The notes under the pieces: generated by a model | Databases searched by the model: none | Told to the model about the DNA's origin: nothing | Seen by the model: the letters and a program-made list of their open reading frames with translations, nothing else | NCBI GenBank assembly: GCA_905235995.1 | Contig: CAJONI010000020.1 | Span: 1 to 64,000 of the forward strand | Source of the DNA: an uncultured Bacteroidales bacterium | Lineage (GTDB): Bacteria > Bacteroidota > Bacteroidia > Bacteroidales > UBA932 | Direction of reading: 5' to 3' | DNA length: 64,000 bases | In this document: positions 2,683-63,326 of the stretch, one piece after another | Numbering within the stretch: the stretch's first letter is position 1 | How the letters are laid out: each line of letters opens with the position of its first letter | Translations under genes and position numbers: made by a program

Positions 2683-3744
2683 ATGTGGCAAGGTAGGGAA
2701 GTCTTTCTTTGTACCCTGGCCTTTCTGGCCGGAAACGTGGCGGGCGATGCGCTTTCATTCCATCCCGCCGTGCTTTTGCTCATTGCTGCTCTCTGTGCCG
2801 TTCTGCTGTGGCTCCGTCCATGCGGAGGACTGTCGATACTTTGCCTGTTCATGTTGGGAGCCGCCAGCGTCCAGACAGGGCGTATGCCTCCGGAACCGGA
2901 ACTTTCCTCTCTCATGGCATGGGCTGCTCGCTGCAAAGCCGGTTTCTCGGAGTCCCTGGCCATGTGGTTTCCGGAAGGTGACGAACTCGCCGTGCTCCGG
3001 GCGCTTTCAATAGGCGACAAAGGCTCGCTTACGCGCGACCTCAGGGCGGCCTACCGTGAGAGCGGAGCGATGCACCTGCTGGCGCTCAGCGGACTCCACG
3101 TGGGCCTGGTCTATGCGCTTCTGTCATGGCTGCTGAAGCCGCTGGGAGGGAGCCGGACGGCCCGGATGCTGCGCAGCGTCCTCCTTCTGGCCGCACTCTG
3201 GGCCTATGCCCTCATCACAGGACTCAGCGCCTCTATCTCCCGGGCGGTGCTGATGATCAGCTTCTATGAGGTATCGGGCCTGCTCTCTGGCGACCGCGAT
3301 GCGCTGGCAGCACTTTCCGGCAGCGCATTCATCCTCATGCTGGCCAATCCCGAAGCACCCCGCGACATCGGCTTCCAACTCTCCTACACGGCCGTTCTTT
3401 CAATCATCCTCCTGCATCCCTGGCTTTCCGGGCTGCTGCGCACCCGTTCACCCCTGCTCTCACGGGTCTGGGCACTGCTCAGCATGAGCCTCTGCTGCCA
3501 GGCGACCTGCGGGATGCTGGCCTGGTTGTATTTCGGCACATTTCCCCGCTATTTCCTGCTGACCGCGATCATGGCCGTGCCTATGGCCACTGCCTCGCTC
3601 TATGCCGCCGTTGCGGCCGTGGCGCTGCAGGCCATTTCCACCTTCCTTCCCCTTGTCTCAGATGCCTCCGACCTCTTCGCCGAAGCCCTCCGCTGGCTTT
3701 TGCATCTGCTCAACACCATCATCCGCCTGATCGCAGAACTATGA
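2683..3744 (+). CDS. ComEC/Rec2-family competence membrane protein, short form
   Basis: Competence domain (MHLLALSGLHVGLVYALLSWLL, GLSASISRAVLM); 353 aa without a metallo-beta-lactamase domain. Confidence 0.8.
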   Translation: MWQGREVFLCTLAFLAGNVAGDALSFHPAVLLLIAALCAVLLWLRPCGGLSILCLFMLGAASVQTGRMPPEPELSSLMAWAARCKAGFSESLAMWFPEGDELAVLRALSIGDKGSLTRDLRAAYRESGAMHLLALSGLHVGLVYALLSWLLKPLGGSRTARMLRSVLLLAALWAYALITGLSASISRAVLMISFYEVSGLLSGDRDALAALSGSAFILMLANPEAPRDIGFQLSYTAVLSIILLHPWLSGLLRTRSPLLSRVWALLSMSLCCQATCGMLAWLYFGTFPRYFLLTAIMAVPMATASLYAAVAAVALQAISTFLPLVSDASDLFAEALRWLLHLLNTIIRLIAEL

Positions 3745-3781
3745 TCCCCTTCCAGGCCGCCCCGCAGCTTCCGCCGTCCAA

Positions 3782-3841
3782 CCTCCGCCCGCCTCGCCTC
3801 CGCCCGCACCGCCTCCGCCCGCACCGCCTCCGCCCGCACCG
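3782..3841. repeat. 15-bp tandem repeat (CCTCCGCCCGCACCG), 4 units
   Basis: Three identical units plus one with 2 mismatches, read directly. Confidence 0.9.
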
Positions 3842-3870
3842 CGCCCCCGCACTTTCTCCTGCTTTTTTTT

Positions 3871-3981
3871 CGCTGCAATGTACACACTTGACCGACAGCC
3901 GTTTATGCAAACTCCTCCCCTTGCCGGACGCGGGGAGGACATCTTGTAATGCCCTGATATAGTGTTGCGTCCATTGCAGCG
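3871..3981 (-). repeat. 111-bp TIR element (MITE/REP-like), copy A, inverted relative to copies B and C
   Basis: TIRs CGCTGCAATGTAC/GTCCATTGCAGCG; about 4 differences from copy B over 111 bp in hand alignment. Confidence 0.9.
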
Positions 3982-4005
3982 GAAAAATTAGTACCTTTGC
4001 AGTCT

Positions 4006-5391
4006 ATGGCAGAAAACATTCCTCTTGAACTCGGGACGGAGCCGGTCGGCAAGCTGCTGAAGAAGTACGCTATGCCAGCGATCATCGCGATGACCGCTTC
4101 GTCGCTGTATAACATGGTCGACAGCATCTTCATCGGGCAGGGATGCGGTCCCATGGCCATTTCCGGCCTGGCTCTGACCTTCCCGCTGATGAACCTGTCA
4201 GCCGCCTTCGGCACGCTCGTGGGCGTGGGCGGAGCCACCCTGATCTCTGTGCTGCTGGGACAGAAGAACTATCCCGTAGCCAAGAAGGTGCTTAGCAACG
4301 TCTTCATCCTGAACGTGTTGGTCGGCGTGCTCTTCGCTGCCATCACCCTGACTTTTCTCGATCCTATCCTGCGCTTCTTCGGCGCCAGCGACGCCACGCT
4401 TCCCTATGCCCGCAGCTACATGATCCCAATCCTGCTGGGCAACGTGATCACGCACCTTTATTTCGGACTGAACTCCATCGTGCGCGTATCGGGCCATCCG
4501 CAGAAGGCAATGTACGCCACCATCCTTACCGTCACGCTCAACACGTTCCTGGACCCGATCTTCATATTCCTATTCGACATGGGCATCCAGGGCGCGGCCA
4601 TCGCCACGGTCCTTTCGCAGACCGTATCCCTGATCTGGATTATGCGCATCATCTGCGACAAGCGGGAGTTCCTGCACCTGTCGCGCGAGACCTTCGGCTT
4701 GGACTGGGGAATCGCGAAGCGTTCGCTCTCCATCGGCATGGCGCCGTTCCTGATGAACGTAGCTTCATGCTTCGTGGTGATTTTCATCAACAACCAGTTC
4801 AAGCGCTACGGCGGCGATCTGGCCATCGGAGCCTACGGCATCGTCAACCGGGTGATTTTTCTCTTCCTGATGGTAGTCATGGGCTTCAATCAGGGCATGC
4901 AGCCCATCGCTGGCTACAATTATGGTGCGAAGCAGTACGGGCGCGCACTGGAAGTACTGAACCTCACTATCAGGTGGGCCATCGTGGTTACGAGCATCTG
5001 CTTTGTCGTGGGAATGTTCTTCCCCAGGGCGGCAGTGTCGCTGTTTACCCACGACCCCGAACTGATAGACCTGGCTGCCAGGGGTTTCCGCATCACGGTC
5101 GCCATCTTCTTCATAATCGGCAGGCAGATGGTCATCACCAATTTCTTCCAGAGCATAGGTCTGGCCAACAAGGCCATCTTCCTGTCGCTCACCCGGCAGC
5201 TGATCTTCCTGCTGCCTTTCCTGGCCATCCTGCCGCTCTGGTTGGGAGCCGACGGCGTGTGGCTCAGCATGCCTGCGTCCGACCTGGCCGCACTGATCAT
5301 AACCGAGATAATGCTGGCAAGGCTCAAGAATAGCTTCCGCAAGGAGCAGGAGGCCATGGCCGAAATCCCCGCAACAGTTTCAGAACAATAA
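4006..5391 (+). CDS. MATE family efflux transporter
   Basis: Multi-TM protein with MATE signatures; ORF-track TTG start lies inside the promoter box, ATG at 4006 preferred. Confidence 0.88.
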   Translation: MAENIPLELGTEPVGKLLKKYAMPAIIAMTASSLYNMVDSIFIGQGCGPMAISGLALTFPLMNLSAAFGTLVGVGGATLISVLLGQKNYPVAKKVLSNVFILNVLVGVLFAAITLTFLDPILRFFGASDATLPYARSYMIPILLGNVITHLYFGLNSIVRVSGHPQKAMYATILTVTLNTFLDPIFIFLFDMGIQGAAIATVLSQTVSLIWIMRIICDKREFLHLSRETFGLDWGIAKRSLSIGMAPFLMNVASCFVVIFINNQFKRYGGDLAIGAYGIVNRVIFLFLMVVMGFNQGMQPIAGYNYGAKQYGRALEVLNLTIRWAIVVTSICFVVGMFFPRAAVSLFTHDPELIDLAARGFRITVAIFFIIGRQMVITNFFQSIGLANKAIFLSLTRQLIFLLPFLAILPLWLGADGVWLSMPASDLAALIITEIMLARLKNSFRKEQEAMAEIPATVSEQ

Positions 5392-5402
5392 TATTTCACG
5401 CT

Positions 5403-6038
5403 ATGGAACCCCATCTTATCATATCGATCGGCCGCCAGATCGGCGCAGGAGGCCTCGACACCGCCCGGGCCCTGGCCAAGGAATTCGGCATCAAGATGTA
5501 TGACAAGGAATTGCTGGCCGAAGTGGCACGCGAAAGCGGCCTCGACGCGACCTGCTTCGAGGAGCGGGACGAGAAGTCAAGCCGCGGCGTCGCGGGCGCC
5601 CTCCTGGGATTCCGCTCAGTGCTTGGCCTTTACAACAGGGCCGGCAGCGACAGCGTGATGAACGAGGAGCAGCTTTTCAAGATTCAGGGAGATGTGATGC
5701 GCAGGATTGCAGCCCGCGAGGACTGCATCATCGTAGGACGCTGCGCCGACTACATACTGCGCGACGAGCCGCGACTCTACACGGTATTCATCAGCGCCAG
5801 CCTCCCCAGCCGCGTCCGCCGTTTGATGAGAGGACATGGCTACGATGCCGAGGAGGCCCGCCGCCGCATCGAGCAGGGTGACCGCAAGCGGGCCGAATAC
5901 TACAACTACTACACCTTCAAGAAGTGGGGCGACTCGACCAGCTACGACCTTTGCATCGACTCCTCCAAACTTGACGACGATATCTCCAAAGTAGTGGAGC
6001 TCATCAAGTTCAACATGAGGCAGCGCGGCCTCATCTAA
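5403..6038 (+). CDS. Cytidylate kinase-like family protein
   Basis: ISIGRQIGAGGLDTARALAKEFG ... REDCIIVGRCADYIL; AAA_26-like. Confidence 0.8.
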   Translation: MEPHLIISIGRQIGAGGLDTARALAKEFGIKMYDKELLAEVARESGLDATCFEERDEKSSRGVAGALLGFRSVLGLYNRAGSDSVMNEEQLFKIQGDVMRRIAAREDCIIVGRCADYILRDEPRLYTVFISASLPSRVRRLMRGHGYDAEEARRRIEQGDRKRAEYYNYYTFKKWGDSTSYDLCIDSSKLDDDISKVVELIKFNMRQRGLI

Positions 6039-6050
6039 GACCTTCACGCC

Positions 6051-7727
<1,677 letters not shown>

Positions 7728-7736
7728 AGCTGCCGA

Positions 7737-8501
7737 TCAGCGCAGCTCCTGCACCGGGAAGGTGAAATAAGTGTCCGGATACGGTTCATCCTTGAGGGTG
7801 AAGTGCCACCACTCACTCTCGAGTGCATTGAAACCATGTCTCAGCATTGCGTTGCGCAGGATCATGCGGTTGGCGAACTGTTCGGCGGTGATGCTGCGAC
7901 CGGTGGGGCTGGTACTGCCGTCCCCCGTATACTCGCCCGTCTCGGGATTGCCGCAGAAATCCGGATGACTTTCCGGGCCGAACCAGTCGAAGGTGCCGCC
8001 CATGTCAACTTCCTTTTCCAAAGCCATATCGAAGAGCGTAAGGTCGACCGTTGAGCCGCGCGTATGGCCGCTCTTTTCCATTATGTACAACTGGTCGAAA
8101 AGTACACTCTTGTCGAGGTCGGGATAGAAATATGCCTTCATGGTGGTGTCTGGAATGTCGGCGGCCCAGCGGACGAAGTGGTCCACGGCGCACTGGGGAC
8201 GGTAGGCGTCGTAAATCTTCAGGCGGTAGCCCTGCCCGATCATGTCGTCGCTTACGGCCTTCAGGGCCTCGGCGGCCTCCCTGGTCAGGAGCGCAGTAGG
8301 CTGAAGGTAGCCGTCGATGCGGTCTCCGACGAAATTGTAGGTGCTGTGGTAACGGATTTCCAGGATGGCGTCCGGGACCACGTCGGTGATGTTGACGAAG
8401 TCGCTGCTGTCGGCGGCCGGGTCGGCGACGGGCGTTTCGCAGGCCGTCAGCATCATGGCGGCGAATGCCGCTGCGATTATCAAGGTGAAAGTACGTTTCA
8501 T
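7737..8501 (-). CDS. D-alanyl-D-alanine dipeptidase (VanX/DdpX-like) lipoprotein
   Basis: LKIYDAYRPQCAVDHF, SGHTRGSTVDLTLFD, EWWHFTL motifs; signal peptide with lipobox (MLTACE) from MKRTF start. Confidence 0.88.
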   Translation of the reverse strand: MKRTFTLIIAAAFAAMMLTACETPVADPAADSSDFVNITDVVPDAILEIRYHSTYNFVGDRIDGYLQPTALLTREAAEALKAVSDDMIGQGYRLKIYDAYRPQCAVDHFVRWAADIPDTTMKAYFYPDLDKSVLFDQLYIMEKSGHTRGSTVDLTLFDMALEKEVDMGGTFDWFGPESHPDFCGNPETGEYTGDGSTSPTGRSITAEQFANRMILRNAMLRHGFNALESEWWHFTLKDEPYPDTYFTFPVQELR

Positions 8502-8541
8502 GACGTTCGCTGGTTTGAGTGCGCAAAGGTACAAATTTTTC

Positions 8542-8652
8542 CGCTGCAATGGACGCATCACTATATCAGGGCATTACAAGATGTCCTCCCCGCGTCCGGC
8601 GAGGGGAGGAGTTTGCATAAACGGCTGTTGGTCAGGTGTGTACATTGCAGCG
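8542..8652 (+). repeat. 111-bp TIR element (MITE/REP-like), copy B
   Basis: CGCTGCAATGGAC...GTGTACATTGCAGCG with internal TCCTCCCC/GGGGAGGA stem. Confidence 0.9.
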
Positions 8653-8675
8653 CGAATTTTTGTACCTTTGCCGGC

Positions 8676-9134
8676 ATGAAGAAGATTTTGTTCATTTGCC
8701 ATGGCAACATATGCAGGAGCACGATGGCCGAGGCCATTATGAAACACATGGCCTCCGAGGCCGGTCGTCACGATGAATTTGAGATTGCTTCGGCTGCCGT
8801 CAGCGAGGAAGAATTGGGAAATCCGATCTATCCGCCGGCAGCGGCTGTCTTGCGCCGTCACGGCATCGCTTACGACGGCCAAAGGACGGCCCGTCAGATG
8901 AAAGCATCCGACTACGGGAAATACGATTTGATCATTGCTATGGATGAATCCAACATACGCGGCATCAGGCGTATTGTCGGTGGCGATCCGGACGGGAAGA
9001 TCCGTCTTCTGCTCGAATACGCCGGCGAACACCGCAACGTGGCGGATCCCTGGTACACCAACGATTTCGAAACAGCCTATAACGATATCTTCAAAGGCTG
9101 CCGTGCCTTGCTCGCCGCCCTGCCCCGGTCATAA
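8676..9134 (+). CDS. Low-molecular-weight protein-tyrosine phosphatase
   Basis: ILFICHGNICRSTMAE P-loop (CX5R S/T); DPWY motif. Confidence 0.92.
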   Translation: MKKILFICHGNICRSTMAEAIMKHMASEAGRHDEFEIASAAVSEEELGNPIYPPAAAVLRRHGIAYDGQRTARQMKASDYGKYDLIIAMDESNIRGIRRIVGGDPDGKIRLLLEYAGEHRNVADPWYTNDFETAYNDIFKGCRALLAALPRS

Positions 9135-10046
9135 CCTGAGCAACTTGGCCACTTCTTTCACTGTCGCCCCTCTGTTCCGAATCAGGCTATTGCCAAGACG
9201 TATCCTGTCTTGAATCGTCTGAGTCAGGACATTCTCCATCGTTTCATACTTTCTGGTGTAGCACAGGGTCCGGATCATAGTCTTGTAGATTCTGTAATCC
9301 TTGGCGTAGGTGTCTTCCCTTAGGTCATACTCACTGCCGGTATTGGCATCCAGGGCCGTGACCATCTTTTCATAAGATCCGTAATAGGAGATCGCAGAAT
9401 CGTAGTCGATGCAGTTATACATACGAACCGCATAGTCCGTGAACTGCTGCAGCTGCCGTTGCGTTAACCTTTCTGTAACCCGTTCTATTTCAGTATAATT
9501 CAGCCATCTGCCTTCTTTTTTTCGCGCTTTCACCGTGTAGAGGGCCTTACGGAGGACCCAGCAAGCCTTGTCTATTCGAAGTTTTTCAGAAAAAGGATGT
9601 TTTTCGGTAGCATAAGCCAGAAAGTTCCAGCGGTCTTCTTCCACTTTGTGCGCCAGACGCCCTTCAACAGGATTGTTGTAGACATAAGCTATGGCTGATC
9701 GTATCTTTTTGTGTGACAATTTGGGAGCACACCCGAAAGGGGTGTTGAACAATGGACCTGACAATGAGTAATGCCGGTTGTAAAGTTTTGTGAAGATGCT
9801 GGTATAATCCCTGACGAAAGCCCTGAATCTTTTCGGATCGCGAACCAGGACAATCAGGTGAATATGGTCAGGCATCATGCTGATACCCATGATCTTGATC
9901 CCATAGCGGCGGGACATGGCCGATATCACGGAGAACAGGATCAGGTAATCCTTTACGGAGTAAAAAATCAAATGGCCGTTTCGGGTATTCTGGTAGACGT
10001 GATGAACGGCATCAGCCCTGACAATCGGTTTTTTCCTTCCCTTCAT
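9129..10046 (-). mobile_element. REP-associated tyrosine transposase (RAYT) / IS200-like Y1 HUH transposase
   Basis: MMPDHIHLIVLVRDPKRFRAFVRDYTSIFTKLYNRHY (HUH motif and Y-containing helix); C-terminal HTH-like GATVKEVAKLLRL. Confidence 0.88.
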
Positions 10047-10174
10047 ATCGTTTGCCTCCAAAATGATTTGCCAGGAGCTACTTCTTGCAGCTACTGCAGT
10101 CCAAAGATCGTAATCGTATCCGCAAAATGCAAAACATATTCCAAAACTCCCGCCTCCCTCCTCCTAGTTTTTTT

Positions 10175-10285
10175 CGCTGCAATGTACGCATCGGTATATC
10201 AGGGTATTACAAGATGTCCTCCCCGCGTCCGGTAAGGGGAGGAGTTTACATAAACGGCTGTCGGTCAGGTGTGTATATTGCAGGG
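10175..10285 (+). repeat. 111-bp TIR element (MITE/REP-like), copy C
   Basis: CGCTGCAATGTAC...GTGTATATTGCAGGG; about 10 differences from copy B. Confidence 0.9.
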
Positions 10286-10343
10286 TGGAAAGTTTGCAAA
10301 GGAGGAGCAGAAAGCTTAACTTTGCAACCAAAGCCATTAAGCC

Positions 10344-11351
10344 ATGAGTTTCGAGACAGGCACCAACTTCATAGACTACGTACGTATCTTCTGCAAGAGC
10401 GGTGACGGGGGCAACGGATCGATGCACCTGCACCGGGCCAAGTACGTGCCCAAGGGCGGACCGGACGGCGGCGACGGCGGTCGCGGCGGCCATATCATCC
10501 TTCGTGGCAACAAGCAGATGTGGACCTTGATCCATCTCAAGTACAAGAAACACATAAAGGCCGAGGACGGCGGCGCGGGCAGCGGCCAGCTCAAGCATGG
10601 CAAGCAAGGCGCCGACGTCGTGCTGCAGGTACCCCTGGGCACTGTGGCCCGCGACGGCGAGACCGGCGAAACGCTGTTCGAGGTGATGGAGGACGGAGAG
10701 GAGAAGATCCTCTGCCGTGGAGGCCGCGGAGGCCTGGGCAACGACGCCTTCAAGAGCGCGACCAACCAGACGCCGCGTTTCGCCCAGCCCGGCGAGCCGG
10801 GCGTTGAAGGCTGGTTCATCCTGGAACTCAAGGTGCTGGCCGACGTTGGCCTGGTGGGTTTCCCAAATGCCGGCAAGTCCACGCTGCTCAGCGTGGTCTC
10901 GGCTGCGAAGCCCAAGATCGCAAACTACCCCTTCACCACCCTCGAGCCTCAACTGGGCATAGTGACGTATCGCGACGAGCGTTCGTTCGTGATGGCCGAC
11001 ATTCCCGGCATCATAGAAGGCGCGCATGAGGGCAAGGGCTTGGGACTGAGATTCCTGCGTCATATCGAGCGCAACGCTATGCTCCTGTTCATGATTCCCG
11101 CCGACAGCCCAGACATCTCTTCCGAATACAAGGTGCTGCTGAAGGAACTCAAGCTCTACAACCCTGAACTGCTCGACAAGGACAGGGTGCTCGCCATCAC
11201 CAAGACCGACATGCTCGACGAGGAGCTCCGCAGGGAAGTGAAGCGCCACCTGCCCCGCAAGATACCCAGCTGTTTCATCAGCTCCGTGACGGGGGAGGGG
11301 ATCACCGAACTCAAGGACCTGCTCTGGGAGCGGCTCAACACTGAAATCTGA
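10344..11351 (+). CDS. obgE: GTPase ObgE/CgtA
   Basis: Obg glycine-rich N-domain, [28 protein letters not shown]. Confidence 0.95.
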
Positions 11352-13755: not shown

Positions 13756-13786
13756 AAAAATCCCCGGCCAGGCCGGGGATTTTTTT
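13756..13786. terminator. Bidirectional intrinsic terminator AAAAATCCCCGGCC-A-GGCCGGGGATTTTTT
   Basis: Perfect GC stem with A-tract and T-tract between convergent genes. Confidence 0.93.
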
Positions 13787-14915
13787 ACAGGTAATTGTCT
13801 GTCAGTGCGCAGAGTTTGGAGAATACCTCGTCGATGGTTCCGGTGCCGTCGATCTCGCGGTAGACTCCTTTCCCCTTATAGAAGGCAACCACGGGTTCGG
13901 TCTTGGCATGGTAGGTGTCGATGCGGTTCTGGATGACCTCGGGCTTGGTGTCGTCGGGACGGTTCTCGATCTCGGCGCGGTGCCTGATACGCTCGAACAC
14001 GGTCTTGTCGGGAATCGCAAGCGAAAGCACTGCGTCCACCTTTCCGCCGCAACCAGCCAGGATGCGGTCGAGGTGTTCGGCCTGGGCTGCGGTGCGAGGG
14101 AAGCCGTCGAAGAGGAAGCCCTTCACATCGGGGTTGGCTTCAATCTCGGAGGCTATCATGCCTTCCACCACTTCGTCCGGGACTAGCATCCCCTTTTCAA
14201 TGAGCGACTTGGCCTGCATGCCTAGTTCCGTACCGGCGGCCATCTCGCGGCGCAGCAGGTCGCCCGTGGATACGTGCTTCAGCCCGAAACGCTCCACCAG
14301 TCTTGCCGCCTGGGTTCCCTTGCCGGCGCCCGGAGGGCCGAAGATGAGGAAATACTTGCGTGTGTCGGGCTTGGCTGTATCGAGAATGTAGATGTCCTTG
14401 TAGTTGCGGCCCAGCTGGTCGTAGTCGAGGCCGAAGCCCACGATGAAGCGGTTTTCGATCTCCATTGCCACGTAGTCGAGCTTCAGGTCCTTCTTGTAGA
14501 CTTCGGGCTTGAGGAGCAGGGTGCATATCTTCACGTCGGCTGCGCCGGCCTCGCGCAGGATCTCGGAAAGGTCGGTGATGGTCTTGCCGGTGTCGACGAT
14601 GTCTTCCACCACGATGACCGTGCGGCCCTTGATGGCCGTGGTCAGGCCCAGTATCCTGCGGGTCACGCCCATCGAGAGGGTGCCCTCGTAGGAGGAGAGG
14701 CGCACGCTCGAGAGCTCGCAGGGGAAGTTGAAGCGTTTCATGAGCTCGCCAGTGAAGACGATCGAGCCGTTTAGCACACAGAGTACGATGGGGATGCCAT
14801 CGAAGTCCTTGAAATCCTGATTGATGCGTTCGGCAACGGCGTCGATTGCGCTCTCAATCTTCTCATAGCTGATGTAGGGGACGAAATACTTGTCCTTGAG
14901 TAAAATCTTTTCCAT
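13785..14915 (-). CDS. Hypoxanthine phosphoribosyltransferase-adenylate kinase fusion
   Basis: N-term PRTase (VIVVEDIVDTGKTITDL), C-term adenylate kinase (FGPPGAGKGTQAARL, DGFPRTAAQAEHL). Confidence 0.92.
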   Translation of the reverse strand: MEKILLKDKYFVPYISYEKIESAIDAVAERINQDFKDFDGIPIVLCVLNGSIVFTGELMKRFNFPCELSSVRLSSYEGTLSMGVTRRILGLTTAIKGRTVIVVEDIVDTGKTITDLSEILREAGAADVKICTLLLKPEVYKKDLKLDYVAMEIENRFIVGFGLDYDQLGRNYKDIYILDTAKPDTRKYFLIFGPPGAGKGTQAARLVERFGLKHVSTGDLLRREMAAGTELGMQAKSLIEKGMLVPDEVVEGMIASEIEANPDVKGFLFDGFPRTAAQAEHLDRILAGCGGKVDAVLSLAIPDKTVFERIRHRAEIENRPDDTKPEVIQNRIDTYHAKTEPVVAFYKGKGVYREIDGTGTIDEVFSKLCALTDNYL

Positions 14916-63133: not shown

Positions 63134-63326
63134 GAGAGGCTCAGGCCTCTCTCTCTCTTTGTGGTGCCGGAGGCACCGTTTTTACTGGGGCACATCCCCA
63201 GACCCCTCGCGCGTTCCGCGCGGTCTTACGAGAGGCTCAGGCCTCTCTCTCTTTTTGTGGTGCCGTGGGCACCGATTCTACGGGGGACACGGCCCCCCGG
63301 GACCCCCTCGCGCCGGAGGCGCGTAG
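63134..63326 (+). repeat. Structured tandem duplication (2 x about 96 bp) directly downstream of tRNA-Phe
   Basis: Units 63134-63229 and 63230-63326 both start GAGAGGCTCAGGCCTCTC and contain equivalent hairpins. Confidence 0.85.

Follow-up and report, generated by a model that had tools for sequence, protein, structure and literature searches.

The analysed window is a 64,000-nucleotide stretch of a metagenome-assembled genome (MAG; 1.96 Mb, 88% complete), whose relatives are rumen and gut Bacteroidales MAGs, in agreement with the order named in the preliminary description of this DNA. The locus considered here contains a RAYT-like transposase gene, a phosphatase gene and copies of a 111-bp element (E in the gene orders below), arranged as follows:

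3871..3981, + strand: element copy A, 111 bp; solitary, with a ComEC-like (Competence, PF03772) gene on one side and a MATE gene on the other side
7737..8501, - strand: M15 D-Ala-D-Ala dipeptidase gene, left neighbour of the RAYT/phosphatase block
8542..8652, - strand: element copy B, 111 bp; covariance-model hit of 95.8 bits on the - strand
8542-8557/8637-8652: outer arms of copy B
8558-8573/8621-8636: box zones of copy B
8574-8593/8601-8620: inner stem of copy B, with a 7-nt loop between the halves
8676..9134, + strand: low-molecular-weight protein tyrosine phosphatase (LMW-PTP) gene, PF01451, E 3.9e-36
9129..10061, - strand: RAYT-like Y1/HUH transposase gene, 310 aa; Y1_Tnp PF01797, E 1.2e-6
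10175..10285, - strand: element copy C, 111 bp; on the RAYT's strand, 113 bp upstream of its start
10344..11351, + strand: obgE, right neighbour of the RAYT/PTP block in this genome only

The preliminary description reported two 111-bp repeats in the same orientation enclosing an LMW-PTP gene and a Y1/HUH gene, and this arrangement was confirmed. Copies B and C lie on the same strand and are 91% identical (repeat match against the own genome, E = 2.5e-41), and the PTP and RAYT genes, both matched by Pfam, stand tail to tail between them. The inverted termini also read as given there, except that copy C ends in ...ATTGCAGGG and not in ...GCAGCG. Copy A, which that account did not include, lies on the opposite strand and is 96% identical to B and 91% to C; beyond these three, two diverged copies and none more were found in the 88%-complete genome. 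Folding of the element as single-stranded DNA gives a long hairpin (z = -3.5 to -5.5 relative to shuffled sequences). With its 111 bp and full terminal inverted repeats it does exceed the REP, which has 20-40 nt, and an Rfam scan of window positions 3600-11000 returned sub-threshold chance matches only and no family. Copies B and C are each placed between divergent genes. Divergent Bacteroidetes-type -7 boxes (TACCTTTG, both strands) flank copy B at 8524-8531 and 8663-8670, serving the M15 gene and PTP, and near copy A one such box lies ahead of the MATE gene; the element may supply or displace upstream promoter parts. Elsewhere in the window, positions 13785-14915 hold a single ORF whose translation reads as a hypoxanthine phosphoribosyltransferase-adenylate kinase fusion, and at 63134-63286 the sequence GAGAGGCTCAGGCCTCTC... 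is present as two direct copies (57 nt, 89%) with internal palindromes.

The transposase carries the motif residues D65-H66-I-H68, the catalytic Y126 and N130, and H66, H68, Y126 and N130 (the Asn four residues after the Tyr) are invariant in 41 homologues; residues 148-310 form an extra helical C-terminal domain. The profile NF047646 (REP-associated tyrosine transposase, NCBIfam REP_Tyr_transpos) matches the protein with 40 bits against a curated cut-off of 80, which would make it a remote member by this profile. In a Foldseek search with its AlphaFold2 model (pLDDT 89.6, pTM 0.90), the closest solved structure is 4er8 (E 9.4e-5), the E. coli RAYT bound to a REP hairpin, which ranks above the IS200/IS605 entries. 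The PF01797 match, the intact HuH, Tyr and Asn residues and the fold match bear out the earlier recognition of a Y1/HUH transposase between the repeats. The gene is under purifying selection: dN/dS is 0.05-0.12 in most pairs compared (0.05-0.09 among the relatives of its clade), with exceptions in one very close pair (0.24) and one saturated pair, and such values indicate that the gene is maintained. The transposase is RAYT-like and looks domesticated, and it is probably of the single-strand type.

In a DNA search of relatives, the element was detected in 16 of 61 genomes, every one of the same genus, and 47 non-redundant copies from these matches gave a gap-free family alignment. The span from CTGCAA to TTGCAG measures 107 bp in 43 of the 45 copies. 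The outer stem (alignment columns 1-16/96-111; arm consensus CGCTGCAAYG/CRTTGCAGCG) is nearly invariant, and the inner stem (columns 33-52/60-79) is variable with compensatory changes. Pair 44/68, for example, is GC in 24 copies and CG in 20, pair 45/67 is AU in 23 and CG in 21, and 133 double-change cells were counted compared with 68.8 in shuffles and 9-54 in slid controls. In the box zones between the stems, the cross positions are conserved yet non-pairing (T-T 19/93, A-A 21/91); one side reads TTGANNN(T/A)CAG and the other CTGANNNACTG, so the element has polarity. A REPIN combines two inverted REPs in one hairpin and occurs as a population within the genome; the element is built of two inverted halves, from which the canonical REP unit is absent, and reaches populations of up to 47 copies. 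Copies with exact arms number 47 in one genome (G003) and 33, 32, 15, 15, 11, 11, 11, 9, 8, 6 and 6 in others; the remaining genomes have 4, 4, 3, 3, 2 and 1, and G006 has one non-hairpin chance match, with 0 matches in all genomes for the reversed-pattern control. Matches to the covariance model occur in 26 of the 40 genus genomes, the model's counts per genome being doubled because a palindrome matches on both strands. Inner stems are more alike within a genome (0.80-0.84) than between genomes (0.67), beyond label permutation, as expected from within-genome turnover.

The association of the element with RAYT genes is close and extends far beyond the window. Clade-I RAYTs were found in 11 genomes (57-100% identity), with one copy per genome, and the other RAYTs there are about 32-44% identical. 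An element upstream of the RAYT, on its strand and 60-115 bp from its start, is present in 11/11 of these genomes; the distance is 107-113 bp in most, 61-62 bp in G028 and about 60 bp in G008. A second element lies beyond PTP in nine of the 11, on the same strand in 8/9. Elements also bracket RAYTs that are more distant (about 35-44% identity). When a model trained on clade-I elements alone was applied, 40 of 70 distant loci were flanked, 23 of them on both sides, and 65 of the 79 hits fell within 300 bp of the RAYT, which corresponds to 9.7% of the DNA searched; a model-free palindrome search gave 44/159 RAYT flanks against 0/159 shuffled ones. The distant elements have the same build, a length of mostly 107-112 and the same boxes, and differ in their outer arms. 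The box TGANNNTCA was found in the left half of 21/60 elements (0.24 in shuffles) and in the right half of 7/60 (0.25 in shuffles), and the other arm types near distant RAYTs include CGTGGCAC, GCTGGAG, CCTTGGCAC and CCGTGAGG, among others. On the RAYT tree the type-I arm marks a single clade (support 100/100), and the full set of arm labels requires 14 changes compared with 36 when shuffled, a signal of which linkage alone would give part for flanking arms. Genomes that hold RAYTs of types II and III also contain dispersed copies of these types (e.g., eight type II copies in G015 and seven in G063), and dispersed copies that match the RAYT type argue for action in trans. Several genus genomes contain 2-5 mutually diverged RAYTs of the same family, each with its own arm type, and these are parallel RAYT/repeat systems in one cell.

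RAYT proteins mobilise REP/BIME palindromes and are often placed between REP copies. By analogy, the 111-bp element had been proposed as the substrate of the adjacent RAYT, and the 11/11 linkage, the dispersal and the arm co-diversification indicate that it is very probably the cognate repeat. The expected correlation between element abundance and RAYT presence was seen in part. Genus-wide, model hits occur in 23/23 genomes with a full-length RAYT relative and in 3/17 without one (Fisher 3e-8, uncorrected for phylogeny); however, the element-free genomes come mostly from the half of the genus that ObgE identity shows to be more distant, so that the correlation is confounded by phylogeny. In the closest subclade (18 genomes with type-I elements), genomes with the RAYT tend to have more copies (one-sided p = 0.056). 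Seven of these 18 have no detected clade-I RAYT, some of them being 92-95% complete, which indicates that the RAYT is unnecessary for element persistence.

The 44 G003 copies compared have TTTT on the left (-5 to -2) and AAAA on the right (+2 to +5), each position agreeing in about 80-95% of them, and a target-site duplication of 2-9 bp was found in 0/44. By gene setting, 18 G003 copies are convergent, 17 tandem and three divergent; with ORFs called more strictly, convergent pairs are over-represented (17/37 with the element versus 16/102 without). Short extra pieces of terminal sequence TTTTCCGCTGC were noticed tens of bases outside several G003 elements (flanks of L251, L266, L259 and L074), and these pieces resemble footprints or preferred targets. 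Reading of the flanks as terminators was rejected, since a T-tract comes before the hairpin whichever strand is read and stems upstream of it are not a general feature. A search for empty sites of solitary copies between G063 and G004, which share about 82% identity away from the RAYT block, gave one doubtful case and no clean occupied/empty pair.

Comparison of gene order shows that the RAYT/PTP block has changed its place. In eight relatives, the pair is located between the ComEC-like gene and the MATE gene. In the window it stands, within a rearranged neighbourhood, between obgE and the M15 dipeptidase gene, no homologue of which was seen at syntenic sites in the relatives, and the lone copy A occupies the ComEC/MATE site; G008 and G028 have a common third context. 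Equivalent copies in the nearest relatives are 64-78% alike in most pairs (89% in one G027 pair), and the 91-96% likeness of A, B and C is far above this, so the relocation is recent. Between G024 and G027, a 3.5-kb segment, phosphoesterase-E-GntP-cl28, is inverted, and its ends are elements in opposite orientation (L071 6029- and 9574+; L073 5592- and 9111+). Elements thus stand at rearrangement ends, and the RAYT and homologous recombination are both candidates for the cause. In G011 (L301 14480-15200), the stop codons of the phosphoesterase and PTP genes abut, E-RAYT is missing and the PTP-side element is kept, and in G063 a 9-bp GTGCGGCAG lies on either side of the E-RAYT module. The G011 junction could be read as an empty site with a 9-bp duplication (GTGCGGCAG), but close relatives of G011 carry the module, so that a deletion across the 9-bp repeat is at least as likely as an ancestral empty site, and the junction is not counted as evidence of insertion. 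G063 and G004 share a 2.85-kb block of RAYT, E, phosphoesterase and E (L076 7010-9865 versus L077) that is 95-99% identical, compared with about 82% in other aligned regions, which points to recent horizontal exchange. Composite transfer of this RAYT-E-PAP-E block was also rejected, its breakpoints lying inside the PTP 3' end and about 130 bp past the outer element. The PTP gene itself is present in 25/40 genus genomes, many of them without clade-I RAYT and with PTP elsewhere on the chromosome; it adjoins the RAYT in 11/11 clade-I genomes, and within the subclade it is found in 11/11 genomes with RAYT versus 1/7 without. The PTP-side element is missing in G004 and G024, two of the 11 clade-I genomes.

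These data allow the proposed movement of a composite transposon to be weighed, in which the direct copies would be the ends of a 1.74-kb unit moved by the RAYT with the phosphatase as cargo. The relocation of the block stands, and the proposal also draws on the E-PTP-RAYT-E bracket in 9/11 clade-I genomes with direct orientation in 8/9, the three gene contexts of the block and the solitary copy A that occupies the other site here, the 91-96% likeness of A, B and C, which speaks for a recent event, and the tracking of RAYT by PTP in the subclade. The cargo role of the phosphatase finds no general support, PTP being a resident gene: many genus members have it without RAYT, G004 and G024 are without the PTP-side copy, and G011 retains PTP and the outer copy with no E-RAYT. 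Moreover, recent multiple RAYT copies are never present, and the block exchanged between G063 and G004 did not include PTP and has breakpoints off the element ends, so that a composite transposon is regarded as unlikely. Single genes between successive elements near the RAYT (E-PAP-E-RAYT/PTP-E) and element-bounded blocks inverted between species, as in G024/G027, might also suggest an integron-like gene-cassette system with the element as an attC-like folded recombination site. However, GTTRRRY/RYYYAAC core sites are absent from the arms, most copies are solitary and dispersed, and homologous recombination also explains the changes in gene order; this explanation is given the lowest probability of all those considered.

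It is hardly more probable that the element belongs, as a MITE, to an unrelated DDE insertion sequence and is located near the RAYT by chance or by a common intergenic preference. Perfect terminal inverted repeats, fixed length and dispersed intergenic copies are what such an origin would give, but it is opposed by the absence of target duplication in all 44 copies, by RAYT linkage that persists at identities as low as about 35%, the arms changing in parallel, and by the constant 107-113 bp to the RAYT start in most clade-I genomes. More serious, although slightly less probable than the composite transposon, is the view that the host retains the element mainly for a role of its own, for example as a bidirectional terminator, as a structure at mRNA 3' ends or as a local supercoiling site, and that the RAYT link is a relic. 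The enrichment of convergent pairs in G003, the T/A tracts at both element ends and the persistence of type-I copies in genomes without detected clade-I RAYT are in favour of it. Yet a T-tract ahead of the hairpin on either strand is the reverse of an intrinsic terminator, many copies lie between tandem genes and B and C between divergent ones, no Rfam family matches, and arms that change with the RAYT are left unexplained.

The explanation favoured here, at a probability of roughly 0.8, is that the adjacent RAYT-type HUH transposase has the 111-bp repeat as its cognate, non-autonomous element, the two forming a REP/REPIN-like pair with a large structured hairpin in place of the 20-40-nt REP. 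If the RAYT acts on the element in this way, the element would fold when the region is single-stranded, on the lagging strand or as an extruded cruciform, and the folded form would comprise the outer stem (CGCTGCAAYGKACGCA/TGYGTMCRTTGCAGCG), the boxes TGANNN(T/A)CAG and CTGANNNACTG, and the central hairpin. It is proposed that the RAYT recognises the outer arm and the boxes, that Tyr126 cleaves at the element ends or beside them, and that the single strand is joined into T-tract/A-tract intergenic sites with no target duplication. Co-evolution would keep element and RAYT matched. The copies might also act as sites of breakage and joining in local rearrangement, whether homologous or RAYT-mediated, and element-mediated rearrangement may have brought the RAYT/PTP block upstream of obgE, copy A remaining behind. 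A bolder version is doubtful: a RAYT family outside the published TnpA-Y1 subclasses, with a 107-112-bp multi-hairpin substrate, clade-specific outer arms and shared CTGA/TCAG boxes, in which RAYT activity, and not homologous recombination, would shuffle element-bounded gene blocks around the RAYT locus by local inversion and transposition.

RAYT/REP systems are among the few cases of a domesticated transposase kept for its interspersed repeats. The genus offers a large natural series, with at least five arm types and dozens of RAYTs in 40 genomes, in which protein and repeat have co-changed without the GTAG guide that defines known systems, and which lets recognition determinants be read from covariation. 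It is suggested that REP-like partners outside Proteobacteria have perhaps been missed, because searches target short GTRG-footed hairpins; a published description of the repeats reported here was not found in the open-access library searched.

Similar to TnpA-REP/RAYT of E. coli and Pseudomonas (PDB 4ER8; PMC3116915), the system has an HUH-Y1 protein with Y...N and a fold nearest 4er8, a single gene for each type with its own palindromic repeat at the flanks, copies dispersed in the genome, and repeat and protein that co-vary. It differs in the repeat, which is about 107-112 bp long with full inverted termini and an inner hairpin, and in the protein, which has about 305-310 aa and the extra helical C-terminal domain. 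The canonical REP is a 20-65 nt hairpin with a 5' GT[AG]G foot, whereas the element has 111 bp, and GTAG/GTGG lies near the end in 1/44 copies. Among published groups, subclass 2.6 (Quentin et al., 2018; PMC6006769), equal to RAYT group 5 of Bertels, comes closest. It is found in Bacteroidetes, and its genes are described as having on their flanks "atypical secondary structures" that lack GT[AG]G and recur at other places in the genome. Host phylum, atypical flanking structures and further genomic copies agree with that description. However, the signature given for subclass 2.6 is NH[LIV]H, WQ and YIH[QN]NP, with a HuH-Y spacing of 82 and a median of 179 aa, while the proteins studied here have D-H-I/L/V-H in most, Y-[LV]-Y-N-N-P, no W between HuH and Y, a spacing of about 60 and about 310 aa; judged by those published motifs and descriptions, the RAYT would fall outside subclass 2.6. 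Class 3 of TnpA-Y1 is described (PMC6006769) with atypical structures, a 5' foot CnGA and Y----Q. The CTGA of the boxes is similar to that foot, but the protein here has Y----N, as in class 2, and the phyla differ. In TIRYT (PMC3733652; subclass 2.1), a Y1 transposase is likewise combined with terminal inverted repeats, but its TIR consensus GGGG[AT][CG]A[CG] was not found, the arms here being CGCTGCAA, CGTGGCAC, GCTGGAG, CCTTGGCAC and others. By description, the protein thus appears to fit no published TnpA-REP subclass among those compared. With IS200/IS605 the system shares the HUH-Y1 fold, subterminal hairpins and absence of target duplication; unlike them, it has a protein about twice as long, no sign of recent gene multiplication, and repeats dispersed without the gene. 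Taken together, it looks like a new, large-hairpin version of the RAYT/REP partnership in a little-known group of rumen Bacteroidales.
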